Shown here: positions 5,282-18,169 of the stretch, in pieces | How positions within the stretch are numbered: the first letter of the stretch is position 1 | How the letters are laid out: each line of letters starts with the position of its first letter | From: an uncultured Pelagibacteraceae bacterium | GTDB lineage: Bacteria > Pseudomonadota > Alphaproteobacteria > Pelagibacterales > Pelagibacteraceae | Length of the DNA stretch: 48,873 nt | Assembly: GCA_902591535.1 (NCBI GenBank) | Contig: CACJBA010000008.1 | Coordinates: 1 to 48,873, forward strand | Reading direction: 5' to 3' | Notes under the pieces: model-generated | Seen by the model: only the letters and a program-made list of their open reading frames with translations | The model's database searches: none | What the model was told of the DNA's origin: nothing | Translations under genes and position numbers: made by a program

Positions 5282-5342
5282 AAGAAATCTTAATTTAAAA
5301 ACGTAATTAATTTATTAGAAAATTCTTTATTTCAAATTAATA

Positions 5343-5369
5343 CTTATATTAGCCTTATCTTAAATACAA
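5343..5369 (-). promoter_or_regulatory. Candidate promoter of the rarD unit
   Basis: On the minus strand a TTGTAT (5369-5364) and a TATAAG (5348-5343) are separated by 15 bases, upstream of the transporter start at 5281. The spacing is short, so this is a weak call. The 107-base gap between the caspase gene and rarD otherwise shows no hairpin with a T-run. Confidence 0.3.
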
Positions 5370-5388
5370 AAATAATACTTAATTTTTT

Positions 5389-7032
5389 CTATCTATAAGT
5401 AACCAGAATTGCATCTGGATCACCTGATAATGAAGGATTTTGTTTTCTCCCTAGTTCCGCTGCTTTAACCGATACATTTTTCTTCATATAAGATAACAAC
5501 TCTCCATTGGTAATTTTTTTATCATTATTTTCATCAGCTTTTCCTTCCAATCCTTTCATCAAAAAATAAGAAAATATTCCATGTTTAGCTTCTTTTAACC
5601 CTGATGAAATTTCATTTAAACCTGATGCACTAAAAACTGTAAACATATCTGGAATTTCAGAATCCTCAGTTTTTAATTTAAGAGGACGAGCTGAAGCTAA
5701 AAGAGTTTTTTCATCTCTAGATACACCACTGTAACAGGCATCTATAAAAATAGTTACTTTCTTAGGTTCTAGATCTAGAATTGATTTAAAAAACTTAGTT
5801 CTAGATATTGCAGACCCATCTAGCATATCTGGATCACTATTTTGAGAAAGAATATAAAGTTCATTATTTTCACTTTCTGTATTTGCTAATCCATGACCAG
5901 CAAAAAATATTATTAATTCTGTTCTATTTTTATTTATTTTAGCTGGTAACCATTTTTTCAACAATGCTAACGTGTCAATATAAGTAGCTTTTTCATCGGT
6001 TAAAAGTTTAATATTTTCTTTTGATACACCAAAAGCCAATCTTGCATATTCATGAAAAAATTTAGCATCAGCAGATGCATAAGTTGCTTGTGGTGCTTTA
6101 TCATACTTTTCAATACCTATAACAATAGCAACTTTATCAGAACCTATTTGATTATAATTTATTTTATTTGGTTCTAATTTCTCCAGCTTTTTAACTATAG
6201 ATTTACTAGAATTATCAATTTTAATCTTAACAATTTTTTCTTTTGATCTATTTCCCCATTGATCTGTTGCAATTATTTTAACAGTTTCATCAACAGGGCT
6301 AAATCTTTCAAAAACAAAATTTCCATTTATGGCTTCTTGAACTTGACCATCAATCTCTACAAATATACGTTTTGATCCCTCATCTTCAACTTTACCCTCT
6401 AATTTATAAGAGGATTGACCAAAGGTTAAATTTTTTGCAATTATAATTTTTGGAGGAGTTTTGTCTTTACTTGTTTTTATTGTTATTTCTGTTTGTTTTT
6501 CTTGCTCTGGTTCTTCAATTTTCTTTTCAGGTTCTATTTTTACAATTTTGTCATCTTTTTTTTCTTCAGAGGGATTAAGATTTTCTGCGAGTTTCATCAA
6601 TCCAAATGTATATGCTTGATTTAATTCATTTCTAGTAATCCCAAAATCCTTTACATTTAACCTTTGCATTATATATTTTCGACTTCCTTTAGACGTTAAA
6701 GAAAATATTTCGGTAAATAAATCTACTGGACTTTTAGAAATTAATTGCAAATTTCTTTCTGATAAAACATTCATCGTTTTATCGCTAGTAGCATTAATAT
6801 TATATTTATTACCACATAAATAATATGATCTATTGTTATTTTTTTTACTTAAATTAATTAATACATATTGATATTTTTTTTCATTTAGATTTTCTAACCA
6901 TAATATATCGATTTTATTTAACCCACCTAATTGATTAACTAATGATGCACAGTCTATACCTATTTTAATATAAGCTATTGATGAATTTGAAAATATGAAA
7001 ATAAAAATTATACCTAATAAAAATTTCTTCAT
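5389..7032 (-). CDS. Exported caspase-like (metacaspase/orthocaspase) protein, 547 aa
   Basis: Peptidase C14-type caspase-fold protein. A signal peptide covers residues 1-20. Residues 21-150 are an unrecognised N-terminal region with four Cys-containing strands. A Glu/Lys-rich linker (155-190) follows, then an Ig-like beta domain (about 193-272) and the caspase p20-like domain (about 300-540). The catalytic dyad is present: His380 in IIFFAGHG and Cys433 in IDACYSG. An EF-hand-type loop D-x-N-x-D-x-K-I-x-x-x-E occupies residues 500-511. The C-terminus ends in SGDPDAILVTYR, like its two paralogues in this window. It begins directly after the stop of the SHOCT gene, with no spacer. Metacaspases cleave after Arg or Lys; substrate and role here are unknown. 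Export implies a periplasmic or surface location. Confidence 0.85.
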   Translation of the reverse strand: MKKFLLGIIFIFIFSNSSIAYIKIGIDCASLVNQLGGLNKIDILWLENLNEKKYQYVLINLSKKNNNRSYYLCGNKYNINATSDKTMNVLSERNLQLISKSPVDLFTEIFSLTSKGSRKYIMQRLNVKDFGITRNELNQAYTFGLMKLAENLNPSEEKKDDKIVKIEPEKKIEEPEQEKQTEITIKTSKDKTPPKIIIAKNLTFGQSSYKLEGKVEDEGSKRIFVEIDGQVQEAINGNFVFERFSPVDETVKIIATDQWGNRSKEKIVKIKIDNSSKSIVKKLEKLEPNKINYNQIGSDKVAIVIGIEKYDKAPQATYASADAKFFHEYARLAFGVSKENIKLLTDEKATYIDTLALLKKWLPAKINKNRTELIIFFAGHGLANTESENNELYILSQNSDPDMLDGSAISRTKFFKSILDLEPKKVTIFIDACYSGVSRDEKTLLASARPLKLKTEDSEIPDMFTVFSASGLNEISSGLKEAKHGIFSYFLMKGLEGKADENNDKKITNGELLSYMKKNVSVKAAELGRKQNPSLSGDPDAILVTYR

Positions 7033-8409
7033 TTAGTAATTATCACATGCAGATCCACATGCCTCATAAGCGGCTGCACTAGCTTCTTCAGTTGTACCAC
7101 CTGCAGCTAGAACCTCAAAATAGGCTTCCCATCCCGCCGTAACTGCAGCCTCATCTATTCCAATTGAAACAGCATAAGCAATTTCTGCATCTATTGCTGC
7201 AGCTAGTTCTTGTTCAATTGATTGTTCAATAGCTTCACCTGTTGCTTCTTCAATGGCATTGACTAGTAAAGCAGATAGTTCTTGACCTACAGACTCCTCA
7301 ATTGCTTGAGCAACACTAGCATTAATTGCTTTTTCCATTTCTTTTTCAATTTCCTTATCTACAGTTTTATCCATTTCCTGACTAATTTGTTTATCGATAA
7401 TTTTTTGTATTTCTTCTTCGGTAACATCATATTCTTCTGATAATCTTTTCTTTGCTTTTCTAATTGCCTTATCGATTTTTATGTTAAAAAATTCCATATT
7501 GAGGGCAATAGCTTTTTTGCTAGCAATTTTAATATAATAATGGAATGGTTGATTTCTCGGGGTTAAAACTTGATAGAAAAAGGCTCTATGTCTTTTTACA
7601 TATCTACCTTCAAAAGTTAATATTTTACTTCCGTCTATAAAAAGCTCTAATTTATGTGCTTCTTTATTCCATATCGGTTTTTTTTTCTCACTAAATGGAT
7701 TTTTTAAAAGTCTACCTACATCTTTTAAAGATTTCCCTATATCAGAAACCATTTCATTTACGGCGTCCCCTATTTGGATACCGGATTGGACGTCGTATAC
7801 TGTCTTTTTAAAAGTTATATTTTTTTCACTTCCAAGAAAATGCTTAGTTTTAAAATTATCAACTATGTGGAAAAGTTTTTTGTTATCAGACGCCCTTACA
7901 ATTTTTATACCACCAGGTCTATAAGGTAAAATTTTATAATTTTTAAATTCTAATACTACTTTTTCCCAGTTTTTTCTTCCTGGGTCTTTTTTATAGTTAT
8001 ATACATAATCTATCGCTGGCTTAGATTCATCAGCCATCTCATTTAAGTCTATGTTTTCGCCAGTTGCTTCTTTTTTTTCTAAAAAGGCTTTTGATTTTAA
8101 AAATTCTTCTTCACTAATAGCACCATCTTTTAAAAGCTTTTCTAATACTTCAATTTGTTTTTTTAATGTAATTGAAGTTTCATCGTTTTCTTCATCATTT
8201 GTATTATTGCTATTCTCTAATTTTTTTTTTTTAATTAGTAATCTAGTTTTAATTTTATCGTATTCGTCCTCATCCATTGCTCCAGATTTAAACAATCCAT
8301 CAATAGACTCTATTTGTTGATTTATTTTATTTATTTCATCAACATTTGAAAAAGCTGTAGTTGAAAATAGTAGAAAAAAAATTACGATGAGATATTTTAA
8401 ATTAATCAT
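7033..8409 (-). CDS. Exported protein with two SHOCT-like domains and a helical Ala/Glu-rich tail
   Basis: A signal peptide (about 1-21) precedes two SHOCT-like helical hairpins at about residues 26-72 and 82-113 (LFKSGAMDEDEYDKIK and LLKDGAISEEEFLKSK). SHOCT is a short oligomerisation motif. Residues about 145-300 form a beta-rich region without a recognised family. Residues about 305-430 are a long amphipathic Glu/Ala/Ile-rich helical array with recurring EQxI/ExAIE patterns, and the end has a CGSACDNY motif. The stop TAA is immediately followed by the ATG of the 547-aa caspase, so the two are translated from one message and may work together. Function not known; a scaffold or activator for the caspase is only a guess. 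Confidence 0.7.
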   Translation of the reverse strand: MINLKYLIVIFFLLFSTTAFSNVDEINKINQQIESIDGLFKSGAMDEDEYDKIKTRLLIKKKKLENSNNTNDEENDETSITLKKQIEVLEKLLKDGAISEEEFLKSKAFLEKKEATGENIDLNEMADESKPAIDYVYNYKKDPGRKNWEKVVLEFKNYKILPYRPGGIKIVRASDNKKLFHIVDNFKTKHFLGSEKNITFKKTVYDVQSGIQIGDAVNEMVSDIGKSLKDVGRLLKNPFSEKKKPIWNKEAHKLELFIDGSKILTFEGRYVKRHRAFFYQVLTPRNQPFHYYIKIASKKAIALNMEFFNIKIDKAIRKAKKRLSEEYDVTEEEIQKIIDKQISQEMDKTVDKEIEKEMEKAINASVAQAIEESVGQELSALLVNAIEEATGEAIEQSIEQELAAAIDAEIAYAVSIGIDEAAVTAGWEAYFEVLAAGGTTEEASAAAYEACGSACDNY

Positions 8410-8441
8410 AAAAATATGATCACTTTATAAAAATTAATATT

Positions 8442-8447
8442 ATTATA
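8442..8447 (-). promoter_or_regulatory. Candidate -10 box for the SHOCT-caspase unit
   Basis: TATAAT on the minus strand, predicting a start about 26 bases before the ATG at 8409. A second TATAAA at 8429-8424 is also possible. No convincing -35 is seen. Confidence 0.35.
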
Positions 8448-8486
8448 AAACTTTAAATTTATTAAGATTTTAGATATTTTATTAAA

Positions 8487-8502
8487 CGTTATAATCAGGT
8501 TA
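8487..8502 (+). promoter_or_regulatory. Candidate operator CGTTA-N6-GGTTA in the divergent caspase-block spacer
   Basis: Two half-sites, CGTTA and GGTTA, start 11 bases apart. They overlap a TATAAT (8490-8495) that could be the -10 of the rightward protease unit. The same element, with the same half-sites and spacing, occurs upstream of the 918-aa caspase (minus strand, 18003-17988). Direct repeats at 11-bp spacing are typical of OmpR/PhoB-family regulators. The spacer 8410-8583 also holds a small hairpin AAGCA/TGCTT (8505-8519) and a direct repeat TAAATGTT (8523-8530, 8533-8540). Confidence 0.4.
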
Positions 8503-8542
8503 TGAAGCATTTTTTGCTTAAATAAATGTTTTTAAATGTTAA

Positions 8543-8562
8543 TTAGAATTTGAATATTCTAA
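8543..8562. promoter_or_regulatory. Hyphenated palindrome TTAGAAT-N6-ATTCTAA
   Basis: A perfect 7-base inverted repeat with a 6-base centre lies just before the start of the TPR-protease gene (8584). It could be a repressor site or a leader hairpin. There is no run of T afterwards, so it does not look like a terminator. Confidence 0.35.
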
Positions 8563-8583
8563 TAGATTTACCTAATATTAAAT

Positions 8584-10101
8584 ATGATTAAGAATGCAGT
8601 AAATTTTGTTATTCTCTTATCGGTTGTATTTTTTATTACATCTTTGAGCAAAATTTATGCTGATAATTTCAGTGAAAATTTGAGAAATGTTAGAGCTGAA
8701 ATTAATAGAGATAGCCTCCAAGAAGCAATAAAGATTTTAAAAAAAATTGAAATCTCAAATGAGAATCAACAAGAAAAAATTGATCTTTTATTTGGAGATA
8801 TTTATTTAAAAATAAATCAAATTGATAAAGCTGAAGAATATTATCAAAAAAACTTTTTTACATCAAATGAGGAAATAGAAGCTTTAACGTTTATTGGTTT
8901 TGCTGAAGTAAGATTAGCACAAGGAAAATTAGACGATGCAATTAAATATGCTGAACAGTCTATAAAAATCAACTCAAACAAAATTAGATCAAAAATCATT
9001 CTGGCCATCGCCCTAACAAGATTGGGAGAAAGTGAAAAAGGTTTTGATATTTTAAATGAGCTATATCTAAATAGAAAAGATGCAGAAGTTGCTTTAGCTA
9101 TCTCAGGATATTTTAGTTCATTTGATGAAACTAAAAAAGCTATTGAAATTTTAGAAGAGTTTATAAAAAGAGACCCAAACAATATTAAAGTTTTAGATCA
9201 ACTCGCAAGTCTTCATTTGTTTGATGGAAATAAAGATAAAGCAATTGAATACAAAATGATTGTTTATAAATATTATGAATTTAATCGTAATAGAAAAAAA
9301 CAAAAACAAGCTAAAGCATGGATATTATCAATAAATCCTAAATATTTTGATAAGCCTGTAAAAGTGAAAAAAAATGAGAAAAAAAAACAAGAAGAATATG
9401 AAGAGGAAGAAATTTCAAATTATGATGACAATAAAATAACTCCAAATTATGAGGAATTTGCATTTGCACCCAATTCACACGGAAGTGGTTTTATTGTTGG
9501 AGATGGAAAATTCGTAATTACAAACCATCATGTAATTGATGGAGCAAAAAGAGTAGCTGTTAGAAATGGAACTGGTAAAGTTTCTGAAGCAACTGTAGTT
9601 GCAATTTCAAAAGATTATGATTTAGCAATTTTAGAATTATCTAATCCCTACCCAAAAAGCTTTGCTATAGACTCTAAAGAATTTGTAAAACCTAAAGCTG
9701 GAGAAGATGTAATTAGTATTGGTTATCCTGGTATCGGACTAACATTTGAACAACCAACTATAACTCAAGGAATAATTAGTAAAGTTTTTGATGATGAGGT
9801 CGGTATATTTTTAACAACTGCTGCAATTAATTCTGGTAATAGTGGAGGTCCTCTATTTAATCTAAATGGTAAGTTGGTTGGGGTAAGTTTTGCAGCTTTA
9901 GACAAAAAAAAATGGTTAGATGAGGAAGGTCAAATTCCAACGGATATGGGTTATGCTATTAAAAGTAATATGATCAAAAAGGTATTTGATCATGAACAAA
10001 GTGTTCCAGTAAAGTCTGCAAAGTTTAAAAAGTCATCACTATATGAAAAAATGCTACCTAGCATAGCTTTAGTAGTTGTTTTGTTAGATGATAATCAATG
10101 A
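8584..10101 (+). CDS. Exported TPR plus trypsin-like serine protease
   Basis: The first 27 residues form a signal peptide or N-terminal membrane anchor. Residues about 30-235 hold several tetratricopeptide-like helix pairs (for example DKAEEYYQKN, LDDAIKYAEQSIKIN, TKKAIEILEEFIKRDPNN). A charged Lys/Glu linker (255-280) leads into an HtrA-like chymotrypsin-fold domain. Its triad is complete: His316 in TNHHVI, Asp346 in DYDLAIL and Ser420 in NSGNSGGPL. No PDZ domain follows, unlike DegP. The stop overlaps the next gene as ATGA. It heads the rightward unit in the caspase block, so a second protease class is encoded beside the caspases. Substrate unknown; cleavage of, or by, the caspases is a hypothesis. 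Confidence 0.85.
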   Translation: MIKNAVNFVILLSVVFFITSLSKIYADNFSENLRNVRAEINRDSLQEAIKILKKIEISNENQQEKIDLLFGDIYLKINQIDKAEEYYQKNFFTSNEEIEALTFIGFAEVRLAQGKLDDAIKYAEQSIKINSNKIRSKIILAIALTRLGESEKGFDILNELYLNRKDAEVALAISGYFSSFDETKKAIEILEEFIKRDPNNIKVLDQLASLHLFDGNKDKAIEYKMIVYKYYEFNRNRKKQKQAKAWILSINPKYFDKPVKVKKNEKKKQEEYEEEEISNYDDNKITPNYEEFAFAPNSHGSGFIVGDGKFVITNHHVIDGAKRVAVRNGTGKVSEATVVAISKDYDLAILELSNPYPKSFAIDSKEFVKPKAGEDVISIGYPGIGLTFEQPTITQGIISKVFDDEVGIFLTTAAINSGNSGGPLFNLNGKLVGVSFAALDKKKWLDEEGQIPTDMGYAIKSNMIKKVFDHEQSVPVKSAKFKKSSLYEKMLPSIALVVVLLDDNQ

Positions 10102-10880
10102 AGAAATTTATTTTAATTTTTTTAATTTTTACATTTCCCTTAAAAGCGGAAATTATTATACAAACTGGAAAACATTCGCATTTAGGAAAAAATTATACTA
10201 AAGAAGAGTCGTGTAAGATAGCTGAAGAAAAAGCTAAAAATAAAGCTATAATTGAATCAATAGGTGAAACAGCTTCATCTGAAACTTTTTCAAGTTGTTC
10301 ACAAATTGATGGTGAGTACAGTTGTGAAAGAAATAAATTTTCTTTATTGGAATTAAATGGGGATCTTACAGAGTCAAAAATTTTAAAAACAAATTACGAT
10401 AAAGAAACTGGGTCTGAGATACTATTTTGTGAGGTAACCATCGAAGCAAATGTTGAGCCTGTTAAAAAAAATCTTGATCCAAACTTCCAATTCGACATTA
10501 ATTTAAATCAAAAAATTTTTAGATCGGGAGAAATACTCGAAATAAAAATTAATACATCAAAAGAAATGTTCATGGCTATTTTTCAATGGCTACCTTATGG
10601 GGGAAATAAATTTAACGTAGTTACCAAAATATTTCCTAACAAAGATTATAACAAAAATACAAACGATTTAATTGAAGGAAAATTAAATCTTAAATATGAA
10701 ACTTATTTTCCAGATGAAATTAAAAAAGATAAAGTTATTGAACATTTAATATTTGTTGCCTCTGAAAAAAAAATTAATTGGCTTGATGAATATGCTCAAA
10801 TCGAAGGCTTAAAGAAACAATTTTTTAAGACAAATATCTTGATGGAAAAACAATATTCTGATTATATGCTAATTAAATGA
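10098..10880 (+). CDS. Exported DUF4384-like protein
   Basis: A signal peptide (about 1-17, ending LKA) is followed by an N-terminal alpha/beta region (about 30-118) with the helical pattern EEKAKNKAIIESIGE seen in LPP20/FlgT-like domains. Residues about 128-240 match DUF4384: a strand, then IFRSGEILEIKINTSK, then MAIFQWLPYGGNKFNVVTKIFPN. That family commonly accompanies bacterial caspase-like proteins, either fused or as a neighbour, which fits this context. Both ends overlap the neighbouring genes by 4 bases (ATGA). Probably periplasmic; no enzymatic residues are evident. Confidence 0.65.
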   Translation: MKKFILIFLIFTFPLKAEIIIQTGKHSHLGKNYTKEESCKIAEEKAKNKAIIESIGETASSETFSSCSQIDGEYSCERNKFSLLELNGDLTESKILKTNYDKETGSEILFCEVTIEANVEPVKKNLDPNFQFDINLNQKIFRSGEILEIKINTSKEMFMAIFQWLPYGGNKFNVVTKIFPNKDYNKNTNDLIEGKLNLKYETYFPDEIKKDKVIEHLIFVASEKKINWLDEYAQIEGLKKQFFKTNILMEKQYSDYMLIK

Positions 10881-12175
10881 TCTTAAAAAATATATCAAAA
10901 TTTTTAATAGTTTGTGTTTGTGCTTTCTTGATAAGTTCTACCAATTTTAACGTCCTTCATGCTGATGACCATACACCTAAGAGAAAATTAATTAATGAAC
11001 TTAAAGAAGAAATAATAGACCTTGGAGGTACGCCTGTTAAAAGAAAAAACTTACTTTCTTCACTTCAAAAATGGATTGATGAATTAGAAGCTCAATTAGA
11101 AAAATTAAAAAAAATTGAAGCTTTAAAGGTAGAACTTACTAAAGAATTAGAAGAGTTAGGAGAAAAAACAGTTTCAAAAGAGGTAAGTGAGTTAGAATCT
11201 GATGAGCAGATTATTGCTTTAAGAAAACAAATCGAAGAAGCTAAAGCTAAAAACAAGGCAGCTGAAGAAAAAAAGAAACTTGATGAAAAAATTGCAGCGG
11301 CTGTTGAAAAGCTTAAAGAGGAATTGGTAGCATTAGGAGGAGAACCAATAGTTGATACAAGTGATATTGACTCCGATGAACAGATTAAAGCTTTAAAAAA
11401 ACAAATTAAAGATATTAAAGAGAAAAAAGAAATCGAAAAAGCTGAAGCTGAAAAAAAAGCTGAAGAAGAAAGAATTGCTAAAGAAAAAAAAGATAAAGAA
11501 GAAAAAATTGCTAAGGAAAAGAAGCAAAAAAGATTAAAAGCTATTGAAAGCGTAAAAAAAGAAATTTTAATGATGGGAGAAACACCAATTTCAGAATATG
11601 AATTTACAACTGAGGATAAATATATAGCAGCACTTAAAAAACAAGTCGAAGAAATTAAAAAAATAAAAGAACAAGAGGAATTAGCTAAAAAAAATGAGAT
11701 ACCACAATGGTGGATAGAGGCAGAAGACAATTCATCTGATACAATAATTTATGTTGGAGGTACAGCTGATTCCACTGATATACAAGCAGCTAAGGATATC
11801 GCAGAATTTAATGCTAAAATAAATTTAGCATCTCAAATAGAGTCGATAATAAACTCAAAAACAGATCAAATGTTCAGTCAAGTTGGGATTGACAATAACG
11901 AGGTATTAAAAAGAGAATTTAATAGAATTTCTAAAGATGTTTCAAAAAATGTATCTGTCAAAGGATATAGAGTATTTAAAAGAGATCAATTAAACATTGG
12001 AAATGGCAAATGGCGATCTTTCGTTGTTCTGGAATTTAAAACTGGTCTAGCATATAAAACTTTTATTAATGAAGTTGAGACTAATCAAACAGCTAAGGCT
12101 GATATTAAAAAATTAAAAAATTCTGAAGCTTTTAAAGAATTAGAACAATACGTTGCAGAATTTACAGGCGCTTAA
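10877..12175 (+). CDS. Exported coiled-coil protein with LPP20-like C-terminal domain
   Basis: A signal peptide (about 1-29) precedes a long charged coiled coil. Four internal repeats of about 40-90 residues spacing can be seen, each with the pattern (K/T)(K/E)E(I/L)xxLGxxP/T followed by SDEQIxALxKQIExxK, near residues 41, 87, 146 and 226. The C-terminal domain (about 276-400) starts with IPQWWIEAEDN and IYVGGTADSTDIQAAKDIAEFNAK, which resembles LPP20-type lipoprotein domains. Its stop codon overlaps the convergent lipoprotein gene stop within TTAA. Likely periplasmic or outer-membrane associated. Third gene of the rightward unit; role unknown. Confidence 0.7.
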   Translation: MILKNISKFLIVCVCAFLISSTNFNVLHADDHTPKRKLINELKEEIIDLGGTPVKRKNLLSSLQKWIDELEAQLEKLKKIEALKVELTKELEELGEKTVSKEVSELESDEQIIALRKQIEEAKAKNKAAEEKKKLDEKIAAAVEKLKEELVALGGEPIVDTSDIDSDEQIKALKKQIKDIKEKKEIEKAEAEKKAEEERIAKEKKDKEEKIAKEKKQKRLKAIESVKKEILMMGETPISEYEFTTEDKYIAALKKQVEEIKKIKEQEELAKKNEIPQWWIEAEDNSSDTIIYVGGTADSTDIQAAKDIAEFNAKINLASQIESIINSKTDQMFSQVGIDNNEVLKREFNRISKDVSKNVSVKGYRVFKRDQLNIGNGKWRSFVVLEFKTGLAYKTFINEVETNQTAKADIKKLKNSEAFKELEQYVAEFTGA

Positions 12176-12513
12176 TCACAAGCTAAATTTTCTCTTGCAC
12201 CCATTAAAACACCAGCCCAAAAACCTGTTGCAGCACTTTGATTATTATCACGTCTAACCGCCTCACATTCTAACATTTTTCTTGTTAATATTTCTTGTTT
12301 TCGGGCTAAATCTAAATTCATCAAACAATCAGAAAAGCTAGAAGTGTTTTCTTTAAAACCATAGTATTTACAGGTAGCAAAATCATTAGCTCGTTGTTGT
12401 TCTATAAGTTCTTTTTCTTTTTGTAATTTTATCCTTTTTTGTTCGGCTCTATAATCAGTACAAGATGTAAATAAGATTATAATTAATAAAAGAAAGATAG
12501 ACTTTTTTAACAT
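12172..12513 (-). CDS. Small lipoprotein of the caspase block
   Basis: 113 residues with a lipoprotein signal peptide and lipobox FTSC (Cys18). A charged helix (RAEQKRIKLQKEKELIEQQ) follows, then four further cysteines (at FATCKYYGF, FSDCLMN, LECEAV and the final ACD) and a short hydrophobic stretch AATGFWAGVLMG. No family is recognised, though small Cys-containing lipoproteins of this shape occur in Alphaproteobacteria. It starts 7 bases after the 888-aa caspase gene, so it is the third gene of that unit. Its stop overlaps that of the convergent coiled-coil gene. Confidence 0.7.
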   Translation of the reverse strand: MLKKSIFLLLIIILFTSCTDYRAEQKRIKLQKEKELIEQQRANDFATCKYYGFKENTSSFSDCLMNLDLARKQEILTRKMLECEAVRRDNNQSAATGFWAGVLMGARENLACD

Positions 12514-12520
12514 TTTTTTT

Positions 12521-15187
12521 CTATCTATAACTTATTAAAACCTTATCTGGATCTCCTGATAACATCGGTTCTTGAGATCTGTTTTGAGAAAATGCTTCTT
12601 GAGTAACATTATTTTTTAAATATGAAATTAATTCACCATTGGTAATTTTTTTGTCTGAATTTTTATCTGCTTTACCCTCTAGACCTTTCATTAGGTAATA
12701 TGAAAAAATACCGTGTTCAGCTTCATTTATACTACCTGAGGTTTGATCATAGTTTGAAGCAGTAAATATTGTAAAATTATTTGGTGTATCTTGTTCATCA
12801 GCAACTATTCTAACTGGTCTCAATCCAGCTATTAACATTTGCTCAGATCTTGTTTGGCCACTGTAGCAAGTGTCAAAGAACATAGTTACAGATTTAGGAT
12901 TAACTTTGTTTATAAGATCAAACATTTCAACTCTTGATAATGCTGTATCCTCTAAAAGAATAGGATCACCATTGTGAGGTAATATATGTAAATCTTCTCC
13001 ATTATCAGATGCTAGACCGTGTCCAGCAAAGAAAATATAAATATCTTTCCCTTTTCCTCTTGTTATTTGCGGCAGCCATATTTTAAGAGATTTTAATAAT
13101 TCTCCCCTGGTTGCATCTTCATCAATTAAAACTTTCAAATTATTGTTAGGAATGCCCAAAGCTATGTTTGCATATGCCTTAAATGCCTTAGCGTCTCTAT
13201 TTGCGTAAGGCGCATCAATATTATTAAGGTTTTGATATTTCTCTATACCAATAATAATCCCTATCTTATTATTATCTTTTTTAACTTTTATTCTACTAGG
13301 ATTTGGTTTCTCATAAGATCGAAGTTCAGCAACTTGTTTAATTTTAACCTCAACATTAATTATTTTTTCAGATTTATTTTTCCATCTATCTATTGCAACA
13401 ATCTTTAATTGTTCTTTTGGATCAATTGCAAAACCTTCAAATTCAAATTGACCATTTTTAGCGACCTTAATTGGTCTATCGTCAATTGTTAAAAAAAATC
13501 TGCTCTTATCCTTAACCCTACCCTTTAATTTATAAGTTTGGCTATCAACTGTAATATTTTGTGCTATTTCAATAATTGGTGCATCTTTATCAACATCTTT
13601 ATTTTCTGGTTTAAATTCATCTTGTTTCTGTTTTAATACTAATTTGGTATTTTTATTATTAGAAAATATTTCAATTTGTTCATTAGTAACTATTAAGGCA
13701 CCATCAGTTATTTCAAACCTCTCTTTTAATGAGTTAAACAAGTTTAAATTTTCTATGTCATTTTGAGCAATAATAATATTTTCACCCTCACAAGGATCAA
13801 TACCTAACTTTTTAACAACAAAAGCATTGGTTTCTTTAATTTTGCTTAAACAGAAAGCTAATTCACCTTTTTGATTAACTTCATCTTTTTTTACAATTTG
13901 AGTTTTATCTATTTTAGAAAAGTAATAGTCATACATACTATGATTTTTTCTCAATATTTCTTTTAATCCACCTCTACAATTAGTTGAATCATTTACCAAA
14001 AAATTCACATTATCAAGATTTACACAAAGAGGATCTCCATAATATGCACTAGCTACATTCTGCGTTTGGTTTGATTCTGCTTTGGCTATTTGGGTTTGTT
14101 TTTTAAGAACCTTAGGTTTCCAGTAACCAAGAGGTTCTAAAGTTCTGAAATTTTTTTCTTCTACAATGCCAATTGTATCAACTAAGTATGCGTAAAAAAG
14201 TTCGTCTTTATATTTATGATCTATAATAAAATTTGATTTACATGTATGGTATGGATTATCAAATCTTCTAATTTTATATTTGGAACCAGTTACACTCGTA
14301 ACATATTCGCTCAACTTTTTTACACAAAATTTTATATTTTTAGGGACCTTCTGCGTTTGGTTTGATTCTGATTTTACAATTTGAGTTTTATCTATTTTAG
14401 AAAAGTAATAGTCATACATACTATGATTTTTTCTCAATATTTCTTTTAATCCACCTCTACAATTAGTTGAATCATTTACCAAAAAATTCACATTATCAAG
14501 ATTTACACAAAGAGGATCTCCATAATATGCACTAGCTACATTCTGCGTATCGGTTTCTTCTTTTTTAACGATTTCAGTCGTTTGTGTAGTGCCAGGAAAA
14601 TATATAGCTCTATCGTAAAAATAATCATACATAGAATGATCTGGTTTAATTATTTGTGCTAATTGACTTGAGCATTTACCTTTTTCGTACCAATATATTT
14701 CATTGCCTACTGTGCAAATTAATTTGTCTCTGCTATTTTTTTTTGACTTTTTCGCTAATTGTTTTTTAATGTCTTTAACCGATCCTTTTGAGTCTGAATA
14801 TTCTATAATAGTACCTAGAGAACTTTTGAATTTTTTTATATTTCGTGTCCAATCGGCTAAGGCTGAACCTGGATCTTTTGCGCACATAAATCTGTATTTG
14901 ATATGAGTAATTGGTCTTTCATCACTATCTACGTCTCTATAGTCTCTTAAAATGTAACTTTTTTTTCCAAAACTTCTGCAGTGCGCAGAACTTTTCTGCC
15001 ACATATAAGACCAGCTATTATTTGATTTAACAGTATTCCATTTGTTTAAAGGTCTTCTAAATTTGAAGATTATATAATTTGAACTTTTTGCATATACAGT
15101 AACTTTGTATTTTTTTGCTTCTGCATTGCCACTTAAAATAAATCCAAATCCAAGAACCACAAAAAGATATGCTAGTAATCGTCTCAT
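12521..15187 (-). CDS. Exported caspase-like protein with duplicated stalk modules, 888 aa
   Basis: Signal peptide about 1-24, nearly identical to that of the 918-aa paralogue upstream. A long modular stalk follows. A Cys-x14/16-Cys module ending in HSMYDY occurs three times (about 157-195, 225-262 and 386-423); the last two lie in a 58-residue identical stretch (215-272 and 376-433). Two other Cys-containing modules (about 287-362 and 441-500) are interspersed, joined by Thr/Gln/Lys-rich linkers such as QIAKAESNQTQ. An Ig-like domain (about 535-615) and a caspase domain (about 640-885) complete it. The dyad is His723 (IFFAGHG) and Cys774 (FDTCYSG); an EF-hand-type loop lies at 841-852. The ATG overlaps the upstream stop as TAATG. 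Location likely periplasm or cell surface. Confidence 0.85.
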   Translation of the reverse strand: MRRLLAYLFVVLGFGFILSGNAEAKKYKVTVYAKSSNYIIFKFRRPLNKWNTVKSNNSWSYMWQKSSAHCRSFGKKSYILRDYRDVDSDERPITHIKYRFMCAKDPGSALADWTRNIKKFKSSLGTIIEYSDSKGSVKDIKKQLAKKSKKNSRDKLICTVGNEIYWYEKGKCSSQLAQIIKPDHSMYDYFYDRAIYFPGTTQTTEIVKKEETDTQNVASAYYGDPLCVNLDNVNFLVNDSTNCRGGLKEILRKNHSMYDYYFSKIDKTQIVKSESNQTQKVPKNIKFCVKKLSEYVTSVTGSKYKIRRFDNPYHTCKSNFIIDHKYKDELFYAYLVDTIGIVEEKNFRTLEPLGYWKPKVLKKQTQIAKAESNQTQNVASAYYGDPLCVNLDNVNFLVNDSTNCRGGLKEILRKNHSMYDYYFSKIDKTQIVKKDEVNQKGELAFCLSKIKETNAFVVKKLGIDPCEGENIIIAQNDIENLNLFNSLKERFEITDGALIVTNEQIEIFSNNKNTKLVLKQKQDEFKPENKDVDKDAPIIEIAQNITVDSQTYKLKGRVKDKSRFFLTIDDRPIKVAKNGQFEFEGFAIDPKEQLKIVAIDRWKNKSEKIINVEVKIKQVAELRSYEKPNPSRIKVKKDNNKIGIIIGIEKYQNLNNIDAPYANRDAKAFKAYANIALGIPNNNLKVLIDEDATRGELLKSLKIWLPQITRGKGKDIYIFFAGHGLASDNGEDLHILPHNGDPILLEDTALSRVEMFDLINKVNPKSVTMFFDTCYSGQTRSEQMLIAGLRPVRIVADEQDTPNNFTIFTASNYDQTSGSINEAEHGIFSYYLMKGLEGKADKNSDKKITNGELISYLKNNVTQEAFSQNRSQEPMLSGDPDKVLISYR
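13889..14065 (-). repeat. 177-bp direct repeat, copy B
   Basis: This segment is identical, by eye, to 14372-14548, 483 bases away in the same gene and in the same orientation and frame. It encodes residues about 376-433 of the 888-aa caspase-like protein. Absence of synonymous differences suggests a recent duplication or ongoing gene conversion. Confidence 0.93.
14060..14079 (-). repeat. 20-base linker repeat shared among caspase genes
   Basis: An identical 20-mer occurs at 14351-14370, and an 18/20 match lies at 16792-16811 inside the 918-aa paralogue. It encodes the linker peptide around ESNQTQ (EPSQTQ in the paralogue). The similarity extends over about 36 bases between 14060 and 16792 with four mismatches. 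Confidence 0.85.
14372..14548 (-). repeat. 177-bp direct repeat, copy A
   Basis: Partner of 13889-14065, encoding residues about 215-272 of the same protein. It is bordered on its lower-coordinate side by the 20-base linker sequence at 14351-14370, which recurs at 14060-14079. Confidence 0.93.
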
Positions 15188-17943
15188 TATCTATAATTAA
15201 TTAATACCTTTTCAGAATCTCCTGTTAAAGAAGGATTTTGTTCTCTGCCAAGCTCTGCCGCTTTTTGAGAAACATTTTCATCCATATAAGCCAACAGTTC
15301 ACCGTTAGTTATTTTGTTATCCTGATTAGAATCTGCATTCCCTTCTAATCCTTTCATTAAGTAATATGAAAATATTCCATGTTTTGCTTCCTCTAAACCT
15401 GATGAAATTTGATCTAATTTAGATGCAGTAAATATTGTAAAGTTATCTGGTATTCCCTCTTGATCATCTGCAACAATTCTTATTGGTCTAGCAGAAGCAA
15501 GAAGCATTTTTTCATCCCTTGAAATACCACTATAACAAGTATCCATAAACATAGTTACAGATTTAGGATTTAGTTTAATAATTTGTTCAAATAGTTCTGT
15601 TCTTGATAAAGCAGTTCTGCTTAATAAATCTGGGTCGCTATCTTGAGGTAGGATATATAATTCTTCACCATTATTAGATGCTAAACCGTGACCTGCAAAG
15701 AATATTATTAATTCTGTTTGATTATTCTTAATTTTGCTTGGTAACCATTTGTTAATGGTACTAATTGATTTTATTAAACTTGCTTCTTCATCAATTAATA
15801 ATTTAATGTTAGCGTTTGGTATTCCAAATCCTTTTCTTGCATATTCATAAAAATACTGAGCATCTAAATTAGCAAAATTAGCAGCTGGTGTTTGTTCATA
15901 TTTTTCAATACCAATGATTAATGCTACTCTGTTTTTTTTAGATCTAGATTTAATTAATGAAGGGTTTAATTGCTCTAGTTTATCAGCAACTATAGTATCT
16001 TTAATATCAACAGTAACATTTACAATTTTTGGCTTAGATTTATTGCCCCATTGGTCAATTGCTACTATTTTTAATTGCTCATCTATAGGACTAAATCTTT
16101 TAATTTTAAACTTACCTTTTTTTACAGGTAATGTTTCTCCATCAATTTGAACGAATAACTTTTTAGATTTATCAATTACTTTACCCTCAATTTCATAAGT
16201 GCTGTCATTAACTGTTATGGCCTCAGCAATCTCTATTACGGGTGCTTCATTATCTTTATCTTCTGGTTTAAATTCCTCTTGTTTTGGTTCTTCCACTTTG
16301 GCAATTTTAGTCGTATTCTCGCACATTAGATTATATTTTTCAGGATAGTATTTGGGCATTTTTCTAGCTACTGCATTTTTACAGAATATTTCTTTAGTTA
16401 CTATTTCTCCGTTCCATTTATATAATCCTTTATAGTTATTGCTAGAGACTTGAGATTTATTATTATCATCTTTTTGTTTCGAAACTATATTATTTGTTTT
16501 ATCAAATTGGTTATTAAATTTCTGCGCTAAAAAATATAAGTCTGATTGATCAGAAATATTAAAATATGTCTTTTCACCATTAGAGCTTAAAGCAACAACT
16601 GTTTTTAAATCACATTTAGCATAGCTTCTATTTAGTCTTCTTTTTTCTCTGTATTCACAAAGCTCTTTGGCAATTTTTACATTTTCATTTAAATCTAAAT
16701 TATTGAACTCTTTCCAATAATTAATACCTGAACTTACATAATGAACTTTTATACCTTTAATATTTCTATTTTTTACTTTTTCAGCCACCTTCTGCGTTTG
16801 GCTTGGTTCTGCTTTAGCGATTTGGGTATTTTCGCAATCAAAGGTTTTTTTTAAACTGTCAAAATTTATTTTTAAATCGTTAAATTTTTGAGCAGATTTA
16901 ACTAGATTATCTGGTATAGAAGTTTTTTTTAAATAATTTATTTCATTTTCTATACGGTCAATATAGATTTTAATTTTATTTTTTAAATTATTACAGTTGT
17001 TAAAACTAAAATTTGCAGTATTTAATTTTTTATATTCAAACTCTTCTTTTTTATTAGTTAACTCTTGAAGATCCTCTTCAAAATTGCTTAATTTAGTGAA
17101 GAAAAGTTCTCTGTCAAAATTTTGGCTTGTTTCTTTTTTGACTGTTTGAGTGTTTTTCTTCTCAGACAACATTTCAATATCTATATTTTTACTTAAAGAT
17201 ACTTCTTTGATAAATCCTGCACCTGGACAATCATATTTGTAAGACTCGTATTTTGAACGATTTATTATATTGGTCGAAGTTGTTGGGTATTGTAACGGAA
17301 CACCTAAAATCATTTTACATCCTTGATCTTTTTCACCAATTCTGATCATTGTTATTCCAAGTTTTAAAAGAGCCTGGGGTCCATAACTATCTTTAGGATA
17401 TTTTTGATAAAATTCTAAAAATGCAGAAGCAGAATCTATATACAATTGTCTTGCTCTAAAAGTTTCTGCCAACCAATACTGAGCCTTACCGACATTTTTA
17501 TCTCCCGGATTTTCTACAATGAATTTCTCGAATAAATATTCTGCTCCAGAATAATCTTTTTTTTCTGCAGCCTTTAATCCTTTTTGAAAATCATTTAAAT
17601 TCTCCATTAAACTTTTTTCTTTTTTAGTCTTAGGCATTTCTACCCATTCAACCAACATATCTGTGCTTCTGGTTGTTTTTTGATTATTAGAAGGTTTTAA
17701 TGCTTTTATGTATTTATCAAATTCTTTTTCATACAAGCAATTACTATTTTTTTTTGTAGCTTTTTTACATTGTTTCATTGCATCACGTGATGCTGAACTT
17801 TTTGAAGTACCTATACCAATATATTTTTGATAAGTTTTTTTATTAAACACTTTTGCTATGTAAGATTGAGCAGCATACGAGTTTAAAGATAAAACCAATC
17901 CAAAACCAAGAATGATAAACAGATATGCTAGTAAGCGTTTCAC
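15187..17943 (-). CDS. Exported caspase-like protein with CpoB-like TPR region, 918 aa
   Basis: The start codon is GTG (17943-17941); a TAA stop lies just upstream in frame and no ATG is available. Signal peptide about 1-24. Residues about 25-75 hold a small Cys-containing domain with GTSKSSASRDAMKQC. Residues about 117-215 resemble the TPR region of CpoB/YbgF (YSGAEYLFEKFIVENPGD, AQYWLAETFRARQLYIDSASAFLEFYQKYP, in pieces). A coiled coil (280-370) and further Cys modules lead to an Ig-like domain (about 567-648) and the caspase domain (about 670-915). Dyad: His752 (IIFFAGHG) and Cys803 (MDTCYSG). EF-hand-type loop at 871-882. First gene of the unit caspase-caspase-lipoprotein. The CpoB-like part might tie it to envelope constriction or Tol-Pal, which is speculative. 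Confidence 0.85.
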   Translation of the reverse strand: MKRLLAYLFIILGFGLVLSLNSYAAQSYIAKVFNKKTYQKYIGIGTSKSSASRDAMKQCKKATKKNSNCLYEKEFDKYIKALKPSNNQKTTRSTDMLVEWVEMPKTKKEKSLMENLNDFQKGLKAAEKKDYSGAEYLFEKFIVENPGDKNVGKAQYWLAETFRARQLYIDSASAFLEFYQKYPKDSYGPQALLKLGITMIRIGEKDQGCKMILGVPLQYPTTSTNIINRSKYESYKYDCPGAGFIKEVSLSKNIDIEMLSEKKNTQTVKKETSQNFDRELFFTKLSNFEEDLQELTNKKEEFEYKKLNTANFSFNNCNNLKNKIKIYIDRIENEINYLKKTSIPDNLVKSAQKFNDLKINFDSLKKTFDCENTQIAKAEPSQTQKVAEKVKNRNIKGIKVHYVSSGINYWKEFNNLDLNENVKIAKELCEYREKRRLNRSYAKCDLKTVVALSSNGEKTYFNISDQSDLYFLAQKFNNQFDKTNNIVSKQKDDNNKSQVSSNNYKGLYKWNGEIVTKEIFCKNAVARKMPKYYPEKYNLMCENTTKIAKVEEPKQEEFKPEDKDNEAPVIEIAEAITVNDSTYEIEGKVIDKSKKLFVQIDGETLPVKKGKFKIKRFSPIDEQLKIVAIDQWGNKSKPKIVNVTVDIKDTIVADKLEQLNPSLIKSRSKKNRVALIIGIEKYEQTPAANFANLDAQYFYEYARKGFGIPNANIKLLIDEEASLIKSISTINKWLPSKIKNNQTELIIFFAGHGLASNNGEELYILPQDSDPDLLSRTALSRTELFEQIIKLNPKSVTMFMDTCYSGISRDEKMLLASARPIRIVADDQEGIPDNFTIFTASKLDQISSGLEEAKHGIFSYYLMKGLEGNADSNQDNKITNGELLAYMDENVSQKAAELGREQNPSLTGDSEKVLINYR

Positions 17944-17972
17944 AGTATTACTTTATCAAATGATTGTAGGAT

Positions 17973-18003
17973 TTTATAGGATAACTCTAACCATACTCTA
18001 ACG
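17973..18003 (-). promoter_or_regulatory. Promoter and candidate operator of the caspase-caspase-lipoprotein unit
   Basis: On the minus strand a TATAAA (-10, 17978-17973) lies about 30 bases before the GTG start. Upstream of it is a direct repeat GTTAGAGT (18002-17995 and 17991-17984), 11 bases apart, covering the expected -35 position. The pattern CGTTA-N6-GGTTA (18003-17988) is the same as at 8487-8502. Activator-type direct repeats over a poor -35 suggest control by an OmpR-family regulator. Confidence 0.45.
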
Positions 18004-18062
18004 AAAAGCAAAATTTCATAAAAAAAAAGCTCTGTTTTTTAGTTGAATTTATAATTTATACT

Positions 18063-18079: not shown

Positions 18080-18169
18080 GGAGAGATGGCTGAGCGGTTG
18101 AAAGCACCGGTCTTGAAAACCGGCAAAGGGGCAACTCTTTCCTGGGTTCGAATCCCAGTCTCTCCGCCA
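18080..18169 (+). tRNA. tRNA-Ser (anticodon UGA), CCA encoded
   Basis: Acceptor arms GGAGAGA and TCTCTCC pair fully; the discriminator is G and CCA is encoded at 18167-18169. The anticodon stem CCGGT/ACCGG encloses loop CTTGAAA with TGA at 18114-18116. A long variable arm, as expected of a class II serine tRNA, and a GGTTCGAATCC T-loop are present. It reads UCN codons. Confidence 0.97.

Follow-up and report, generated by a model that had tools for sequence, protein, structure and literature searches.

Gene content of the locus

The DNA analysed here (the window) opens contig 8 of a SAR11-like host genome (1.15 Mb, 79% complete) and covers the initial 48,873 bases of that contig. The open reading frame list bears out the eight genes that a preliminary, sequence-only reading had placed between positions 5389 and 17943, as well as their grouping into three tightly coupled units. 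In the first minus-strand unit, the gene for a SHOCT protein (7033–8409) is followed with zero gap by that for caspase A (5389–7032); the plus-strand unit consists of genes for a TPR-trypsin protease (8584–10101), a DUF4384-like protein (10098–10880) and an LPP20-like protein (10877–12175), which overlap by 4 nt; and the second minus-strand unit runs from caspase C (15187–17943) through caspase B (12521–15187, 1-nt overlap) to a small lipoprotein (12172–12513). Genes T, D, L and C (any caspase) are referred to below as the core; loci and genomes used for comparison carry L and G numbers, respectively. The features of the locus are as follows.

5330–18030, no strand: approximate insertion limits between rarD and the tRNA-Ser promoter, from flank alignment with the empty site of G022
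5389–7032, minus: caspase A, 547 aa; signal peptide, variable front, Ig-like domain, caspase domain (His380/Cys433) and EF-hand-like loop (Pfam C14, 4.7e-13; alignment A10)
7033–8409, minus: SHOCT protein, accessory, immediately upstream of caspase A (SHOCT 1.4e-7, two stretches)
8584–10101, plus: TPR-trypsin protease, core gene T, predicted to be exported (Trypsin_2 3.4e-27, TPRs)
10098–10880, plus: DUF4384-like protein, core gene D; N-terminal alpha/beta domain and beta-sandwich, four conserved Cys
10877–12175, plus: LPP20-like coiled-coil protein, core gene L (LPP20 profile in 3 of 8 homologues)
12172–12513, minus: small lipoprotein, accessory (lipobox LFTSC)
12521–15187, minus: caspase B, 888 aa; front with internal 208-nt duplication, Ig-like and caspase domains (NCBIfam 2.2e-15)
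15187–17943, minus: caspase C, 918 aa, GTG start; captured YbgF/CpoB TPR, Ig-like and caspase domains, His752/Cys803 (C14 1.9e-13; alignment A1)
15298–15333, minus: EF-hand-like calcium loop of caspase C, residues 871–882 (motif)
17272–17595, minus: YbgF/CpoB TPR domain of caspase C, residues 117–224 (TIGR02795, 3.9e-25)
17944–17983, minus: element preceding caspase C, its direct repeat spaced by 10 bp, common to caspase genes of other genomes
18080–18169, plus: tRNA-Ser (TGA), right edge of the block, with its upstream region intact

The domain assignments of the sequence-only reading stood for caspases A and C, whose Peptidase_C14 matches pass the Pfam cut-off, and for the SHOCT, TPR and trypsin domains and the lipobox. 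Caspase B, by contrast, is recognised by weaker libraries only: it is unreported by Pfam at E values up to 0.1, matches the PADLOC caspase model at 2.1e-10, and matches the NCBIfam model caspase_w_EACC1 at 2.2e-15, far under that model's cut-off. The TIGR02795 match within caspase C scores 88.8 bits, just short of the cut-off of 90.1; the sequence-only reading had mentioned neither this YbgF/CpoB-like domain nor the tRNA-Ser next to the block. The DUF4384 and LPP20 assignments hold at the family level only. The DUF4384 profile (PF14326) matches all eight D homologues at E≤0.5 (best 1.7e-8), with the window copy at 0.1, under the cut-off, and two of three distant D homologues exceed that cut-off; a structural model of D (pLDDT 85.6) returned only generic beta-sandwich matches in a PDB fold search. 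LPP20 (PF02169) matches three of eight L homologues (best 4.1e-5) and not the window copy; among distant L homologues, that of L104 is over the cut-off and those of L121, L129 and L137 have no LPP20 match. For T, the triad His316/Asp346/Ser420 is invariant in nine homologues, and the trypsin domain matches the PADLOC RT-protease model at 3.8e-19.

The insertion site

Alignment with the empty site of G022, the closest rarD relative (88% identical), with five other empty sites alongside, shows flank similarity fading near 5330 and returning near 18031. The insert thus spans about 12.7 kb between the rarD start and the tRNA upstream region, the latter being kept. Twenty-six same-genus genomes matched rarD strongly; the site was fetched from 19 of them, and the seven left over include G021, which bears the module. 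In 17 of the 19, rarD, tRNA-Ser, sdhE and recG are adjacent with zero genes between rarD and the tRNA; of the remaining two, one holds two other genes and one is broken by a contig end. The two genes that fill the rarD/tRNA-Ser site of G019 (L173:9882-11629) are other than those of the block, and the site may therefore be a general hot spot. The neighbourhood differs at the site in L188, from a genome of another family.

Caspase genes lie at the rarD/tRNA-Ser site in at least 13 of 39 flank-checked loci, representing 11 Pelagibacteraceae genomes, and the rest have no such flanks in the fetched stretch. At L080 both flanks are present and the content is two caspases only. For single genes, some off-site loci are closer to the window (D of L073, 74% identical; lipoprotein of L074, 86%), while window T is closest to L075 and L085, both at the site (80–81%). 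Because the closest relative differs gene by gene, on and off the site, the island looks like a mosaic.

Pfam found no integrase among the block ORFs, and flank alignment with the empty sites revealed no direct repeat at the insert ends. We considered and rejected integrase-type insertion at the tRNA 3′ end, as the block is on the 5′ side and its ends showed no direct repeat. Phage origin was set aside because neither phage records nor viral contigs, the latter scanned for two short peptide patterns, yielded a relative, and plasmid origin because plasmids gave only nine weak matches at 25–32% identity. Comparison of the sites suggests that the block is a movable genomic island at an integration hot spot, rare and patchy in its occurrence.

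Linkage and distribution of a four-gene core

The 68 loci compared consist of the window and 67 others, which are the distinct loci obtained from the 80 best-ranking of 219 confirmed relatives. Profile searches of these neighbourhoods found T, D, L and C all present in 29 of the 68, window included, and in 22 of the 29 the genes follow one another directly as T-D-L. As labelled, the complete loci belong to Pelagibacteraceae/Pelagibacterales, SAR116, Comamonas/Comamonadaceae, unclassified Alphaproteobacteria and one Gammaproteobacterium; as L081 and L083 are near-duplicates and L125 and L130 overlap on one contig, with their hits counted twice, the 29 represent at most 27 independent loci. Thus, the genes are not unlinked in relatives: linkage of the core is kept far beyond the genus. 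The proposal of an eight-gene unit was correct as to linkage, but the conserved unit has four genes (T, D, L and C), not eight. The SHOCT protein, with seven BLAST homologues in the 67 fetched loci, and the lipoprotein, which has homologues in four of them (86% identical in one case), are accessory and lie outside the core. Of the 67 fetched caspase loci, 39 are without the full core in the fetched stretch, some of them being contig-broken. In two loci, L101 and L102, D and L adjoin a caspase, with no T match in the fetched stretch.

Within the order, strong caspase and strong D matches were found in the same 8 of 397 genomes (apparently the same draw in both searches), with weak caspase matches in two further genomes (G284 and G338) and one weak D match (G302). 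Only 1 of the 151 near-complete, clean genomes of the order was positive in the caspase or the D search. In a first sample, 60 other same-genus genomes, many of them incomplete, yielded caspases in G021 only, and a first scan of genome contigs with D alone gave no match. The sequence-only reading had regarded the block as a surprising investment by a genome under size pressure; the genome is indeed SAR11-like, but the block is a rare accessory island rather than a fixed investment. Across a phylum sample, 81 of 397 genomes had a caspase match; 20 caspase loci were fetched from these genomes, and partner genes amounted to a single D-like neighbour, with T and L absent throughout, counts obtained with partner profiles built on SAR11, which may miss distant partners.

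The locus labelled Crocinitomicaceae RS467 (L083) has the same module layout and protein lengths as that of SAR11 AG-914-P22 (L081), and its contig is therefore probably misbinned. Two extra genes (~480 and ~155 aa, exported by eye) are interleaved with or adjoin D, L and T in the Comamonas-labelled L121 (3888-5336 and 5990-6445) and in L104, from an Alphaproteobacterium (8023-9459 and 10102-10581); no such genes were observed between D and L of the SAR11 version.

A family of small exported SAR11 proteins of ~190 aa, here called P, occurs in tandem in L089, L106, L108, L091, L092 and L123, with up to 13 matches in one stretch (L106). Many of the mature proteins start with ADDIRDFQI, and P has no clear Pfam family. 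P was found in 30 of 397 genomes of the order, comprising 6 of the 8 module genomes vs 24 of the 389 others. We rejected P as an obligate part of the module, as neither the window genome (79% complete) nor G377 has a convincing P gene.

Predicted export

The proposal that the block is exported holds as a prediction, all eight window proteins passing a crude signal-peptide/lipobox rule. Among full-length homologues, the rule is passed by 27 of 27 T, 29 of 31 D, 29 of 30 L and 89 of 98 C proteins, and by the accessory SHOCT (7/7) and lipoprotein (5/5) homologues, compared with 184 of 520 other ORFs of the same loci; the rule also flags some membrane proteins. These signal counts, and the motif counts below, omit caspase matches under 60 bits, T and SHOCT matches under 100 and P matches under 60, while co-occurrence used E≤1e-3 only. 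By the same crude rule, 11 of 30 full-length L homologues have a lipobox. D carries two invariant and two nearly invariant Cys across 27 diverse sequences, and the retention of four Cys fits disulfides formed outside the cytoplasm. The signal rule predicts the window caspases to be exported rather than cytoplasmic, in agreement with the earlier judgement that the block is probably a periplasmic or surface system and not an intracellular suicide device.

The catalytic end of the caspases

The caspase ends of A, B and C are 45–57% identical to each other, and 26 of 28 aligned caspase homologues match C14 at E≤0.01. The His/Cys dyad is present in all three window caspases and in 18/18 rows of alignment A9; both dyad motifs were found in 105 of 110 caspase matches, the other five including cut fragments, and the EF-hand-like loop motif in 102 of the 110. 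In the loop of caspase C, D871, D875 and E882 are invariant in all six rows of A1. The AlphaFold2 model of caspase A (pLDDT 80.5, pTM 0.52) has the MALT1 caspase domain as its best PDB match (E 2.9e-11), with metacaspases (Yca1) and the Geobacter protein GSU0716 also among the top matches. Caspase A thus has a predicted caspase fold, and the catalytic motifs of all three window caspases are intact. The Asp two residues ahead of the catalytic Cys, a position linked to basic P1 specificity, is invariant in the 28 rows of A10. Metacaspases are described, in the relevant part of a review, as Arg/Lys-specific and generally calcium-activated (PMC4357240).

Exchangeable N-terminal fronts

Sequence comparison indicates that the caspases are built from a constant C-terminal end, comprising the Ig-like and caspase domains, behind an exchangeable front. 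Apart from the signal peptides and short stretches common to B and C, the three window fronts are without mutual similarity. Between genomes, caspase ends can be 93–94% identical while the fronts show no detected similarity, as for caspase B and L085 (94%) and for caspase C and L080_2 (93%). Conversely, the fronts of L080_2 and caspase B share 90 aa (73%) and those of L080_1 and caspase C share 116 aa (86%), yet the constant end of L080_1 is nearer caspase B (74%) than caspase C (54%). The front of caspase B itself contains a 208-nt direct repeat (13884–14091 and 14367–14574, 94%), probably a recent duplication.

Removal of duplicates, of fronts shorter than 120 aa and of caspases scoring less than 150 bits left 84 of 104 caspases, which together with the three of the window gave a set of 87 fronts. 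Among the matches listed for these, MORN repeats occur in 23, PDZ in five, SBP_bac_8 and WG repeats in two each, and OpuAC, SBP_bac_5, SurA-like and Sel1 in one each. Twenty fronts were also scanned singly, giving near-complete SBP_bac_8 in L076 and L077, complete OpuAC in L078, near-complete SBP_bac_5 in L105, SurA-like in L098, Sel1 in L129 and TPRs in L086. No Pfam match at 0.001 was found in the other 13, so the term “input domain” is generalised from a minority.

Several of the recognisable fronts have free relatives in SAR11. The OpuAC front of L078 is up to 67% identical to free SAR11 proteins and the SBP_bac_8 front of L077 up to 73%, the free form of the latter occurring in 35 of 41 genomes; the YbgF part of caspase C shares 41–58% identity with the free YbgF of its own genus and 27–36% with that of the other sampled family of the order. 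These identities mark some of the fronts as copied from envelope proteins of SAR11, namely the CpoB/YbgF TPR and whole OpuAC and SBP_bac_8 proteins. An assembly chimera was considered for the binding-protein fronts and is thought unlikely, because the two SBP_bac_8 fronts come from different genomes, have a signal peptide of the caspase type and are diverged (48–70% identity) from the 11 free copies compared.

Of the positions invariant in the free forms, the captured copies keep 63–85% overall (SBP_bac_8 129/156 and 119/156, OpuAC 96/113, YbgF 58/92 and 60/72); since some invariant positions are lost, ligand binding may be gone. The two SBP_bac_8 copies keep 83% and 76%, vs 90% in one free copy of similar divergence, a gap that leans slightly away from full native function. 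The gap is small, is measured against one matched native and does not prove a decoy.

Sixteen of the 87 fronts, though mostly unrelated in other respects, have a nearly constant signal peptide, and for most of these 16 the DNA immediately ahead of the gene falls into a few shared types. Both gene ends would thus supply homology for exchange. Direct repeats spaced by 10–11 bp lie upstream of many caspase genes (window 17944–18000, L080, L084, L086 and L096); their sequence is gene-specific and they stand ahead of a TATAAT-like box. They might be allele-specific regulator sites. The repeat was rejected as evidence by itself, the pattern being no commoner than chance within the window.

Comparison with known systems

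HtrA and DegS are envelope trypsin-type proteases joined to recognition modules. T differs from them in having TPRs and no PDZ match at E≤0.1, with NCBIfam HtrA models far under their cut-offs, so that it lacks the combination of trypsin domain and PDZ that defines HtrA/DegP; moreover, the modular component here is the caspase. No account of the T-D-L-C module was found in the literature searched, which was mostly non-subscription and covered largely at title level.

Bacterial metacaspases and orthocaspases (PMC3501461, PMC4933709) share the C14 domain with the window caspases. According to the accessible sections of the 2012 survey by Asplund-Samuelsson, some N-terminal helices are possible signal peptides, some metacaspases may be extracellular, and operons with other proteolysis domains exist (PMC3501461). 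A table in the 2016 Baltic survey (Asplund-Samuelsson) includes MORN-metacaspase and Sel1-metacaspase architectures, and in the main text of that survey there is no occurrence of SAR11 or trypsin (PMC4933709). As far as their accessible text goes, these surveys are without the T-D-L partners, SAR11 or the swapping of fronts captured from housekeeping proteins (PMC3501461, PMC4933709). The trypsin-p20-DUF4384 pseudo-orthocaspases of Alphaproteobacteria, described in 2019, combine the same three domain types; however, in the account available they form one polypeptide with a QC dyad, whereas the module here consists of separate, predicted-exported proteins with an intact HC dyad and adds LPP20 (PMC6426788). 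The EACC1-caspase two-gene conflict system likewise couples a caspase to exchangeable domains, but as described in the sections consulted the partner of its caspase-fused protein is an EACC1 protein of the membrane (PMC7159879), unlike the predicted-exported caspases here, in which the variable part is N-terminal. Against caspase_w_EACC1 the window caspases score 55–60 bits with a cut-off of 140, which leaves them outside the EACC1-associated subfamily, and no EACC1-named match was returned for the other block proteins by Pfam and NCBIfam, which may have no EACC1 model.

Discussion

The explanation that we favour, and for which we consider the balance to be even, is that the block is an exported, modular envelope sensor-protease system in the form of a mobile genomic island; the linkage of the four genes, their predicted export and the swapping of fronts are much firmer than this overall explanation. 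The core of T, D, L and at least one caspase remains linked and carries predicted export signals, and each caspase joins a constant C-terminal end to an exchangeable front. The front would act as the input, sensing or imitating an envelope component, with CpoB, binding proteins, a SurA-like domain, PDZ, and MORN or Sel1 repeats as candidates. D and L, whose roles are guessed, may assemble the proteins into a periplasmic or outer-membrane complex, and the caspase might be switched on by calcium, by release of a ligand or by cleavage by T, the last again a guess at its role. Once active, the caspase would cut envelope proteins after Arg or Lys, and the cell would be changed or killed. With several caspases bearing different fronts on one T-D-L set, several envelope processes could be watched together; a constant protease with a changeable front, often in several copies per T-D-L set, fits a sensor or recognition front on an effector, and such a front may detect a ligand, steer the protease towards a partner or serve as a decoy. 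Counting against this explanation are the 13 of 20 singly scanned fronts without a Pfam match, the invariant positions lost by the captured copies, the 39 fetched loci without the full core, including L080, and the scarcity of partner matches in the phylum sample.

By analogy with integrated-decoy logic, this sensor-protease system could be an envelope immune or surveillance system, in which exported caspases use copied periplasmic housekeeping proteins as recognition modules on one T-D-L chassis and are shuffled through a hot spot, a proposal that we put forward tentatively and hold to be rather improbable. As a rival explanation, we judge unlikely an envelope immunity with integrated decoys, in which the fronts would copy envelope proteins exploited by phages, bacteriocins or contact-dependent toxins; interference with the decoy would trigger the caspase, and the cell would die or be closed off. 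A constant output, a swapping front, copies of self proteins and a patchy hot-spot island all agree with such decoys, as does the somewhat lower constraint on captured SBP_bac_8 (83% and 76% vs 90% in the free form), but the difference in constraint is small and hangs on one matched native, and the PADLOC matches are generic only (caspase model, best 2.1e-10; RT-protease model, 3.8e-19). Quite unlikely, in our estimate, is a processing or display machine for secreted proteins, its proteases serving the maturation of surface proteins, for example those of the tandem P arrays. These arrays adjoin the module in L106, L108 and L123 and caspases in L089, and P is present in 6 of 8 module genomes vs 24 of 389 others; against this, the window genome (79% complete) has one 25-residue P match in one search and none in the order-wide count, G377 is likewise without a convincing P gene, and 24 sampled genomes have P without the module.

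A nutritional role, in which the proteins would be exoproteases digesting extracellular protein, has been speculated for Betaproteobacterial metacaspases in the part of the 2016 survey that treats them (PMC4933709). The two classes of predicted exported protease agree with it and binding-protein fronts could capture peptides or ligands, yet it leaves front swapping and the CpoB- and SurA-like fronts unexplained, and we regard it as very unlikely. The hot-spot location, and the absence of the island there from G022, the closest rarD relative, would also suit a selfish or addictive island, with lethal caspases restrained by partner genes as in a toxin-antitoxin pair; however, no immunity-like gene stands in fixed pairing with each caspase and caspase number varies by locus, which leaves this the most improbable of the explanations.

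Most discussion of bacterial caspases treats them as proteases of death or immunity inside the cell. A conserved exported set that joins constant catalytic ends to exchangeable, partly self-derived fronts would, if the sensor-protease explanation is true, show how bacteria build periplasmic recognition receptors. The SAR11 hosts are the ocean's most abundant bacteria, and at a defined hot spot a streamlined SAR11 genome here gains an accessory layer that was not expected of it. As the fused binding proteins have recognisable free relatives, the trigger is directly testable; betaine/TMAO and polyamines are likely ligands for the OpuAC and SBP_bac_8 fusions of L078 and L077.

Further genes were seen near some of the caspase loci. 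At L104:1631-3117 a likely ECF sigma factor/anti-sigma pair, called from the protein starts only, adjoins the module, and a similar pair, called in the same way, is near the weak caspase locus L070 (8052-9295). At L069 and L070, from two genomes of the order without a D match (G284 and G338), a distant caspase-like gene lies near a trypsin-like gene, and this pair is perhaps a related second system.
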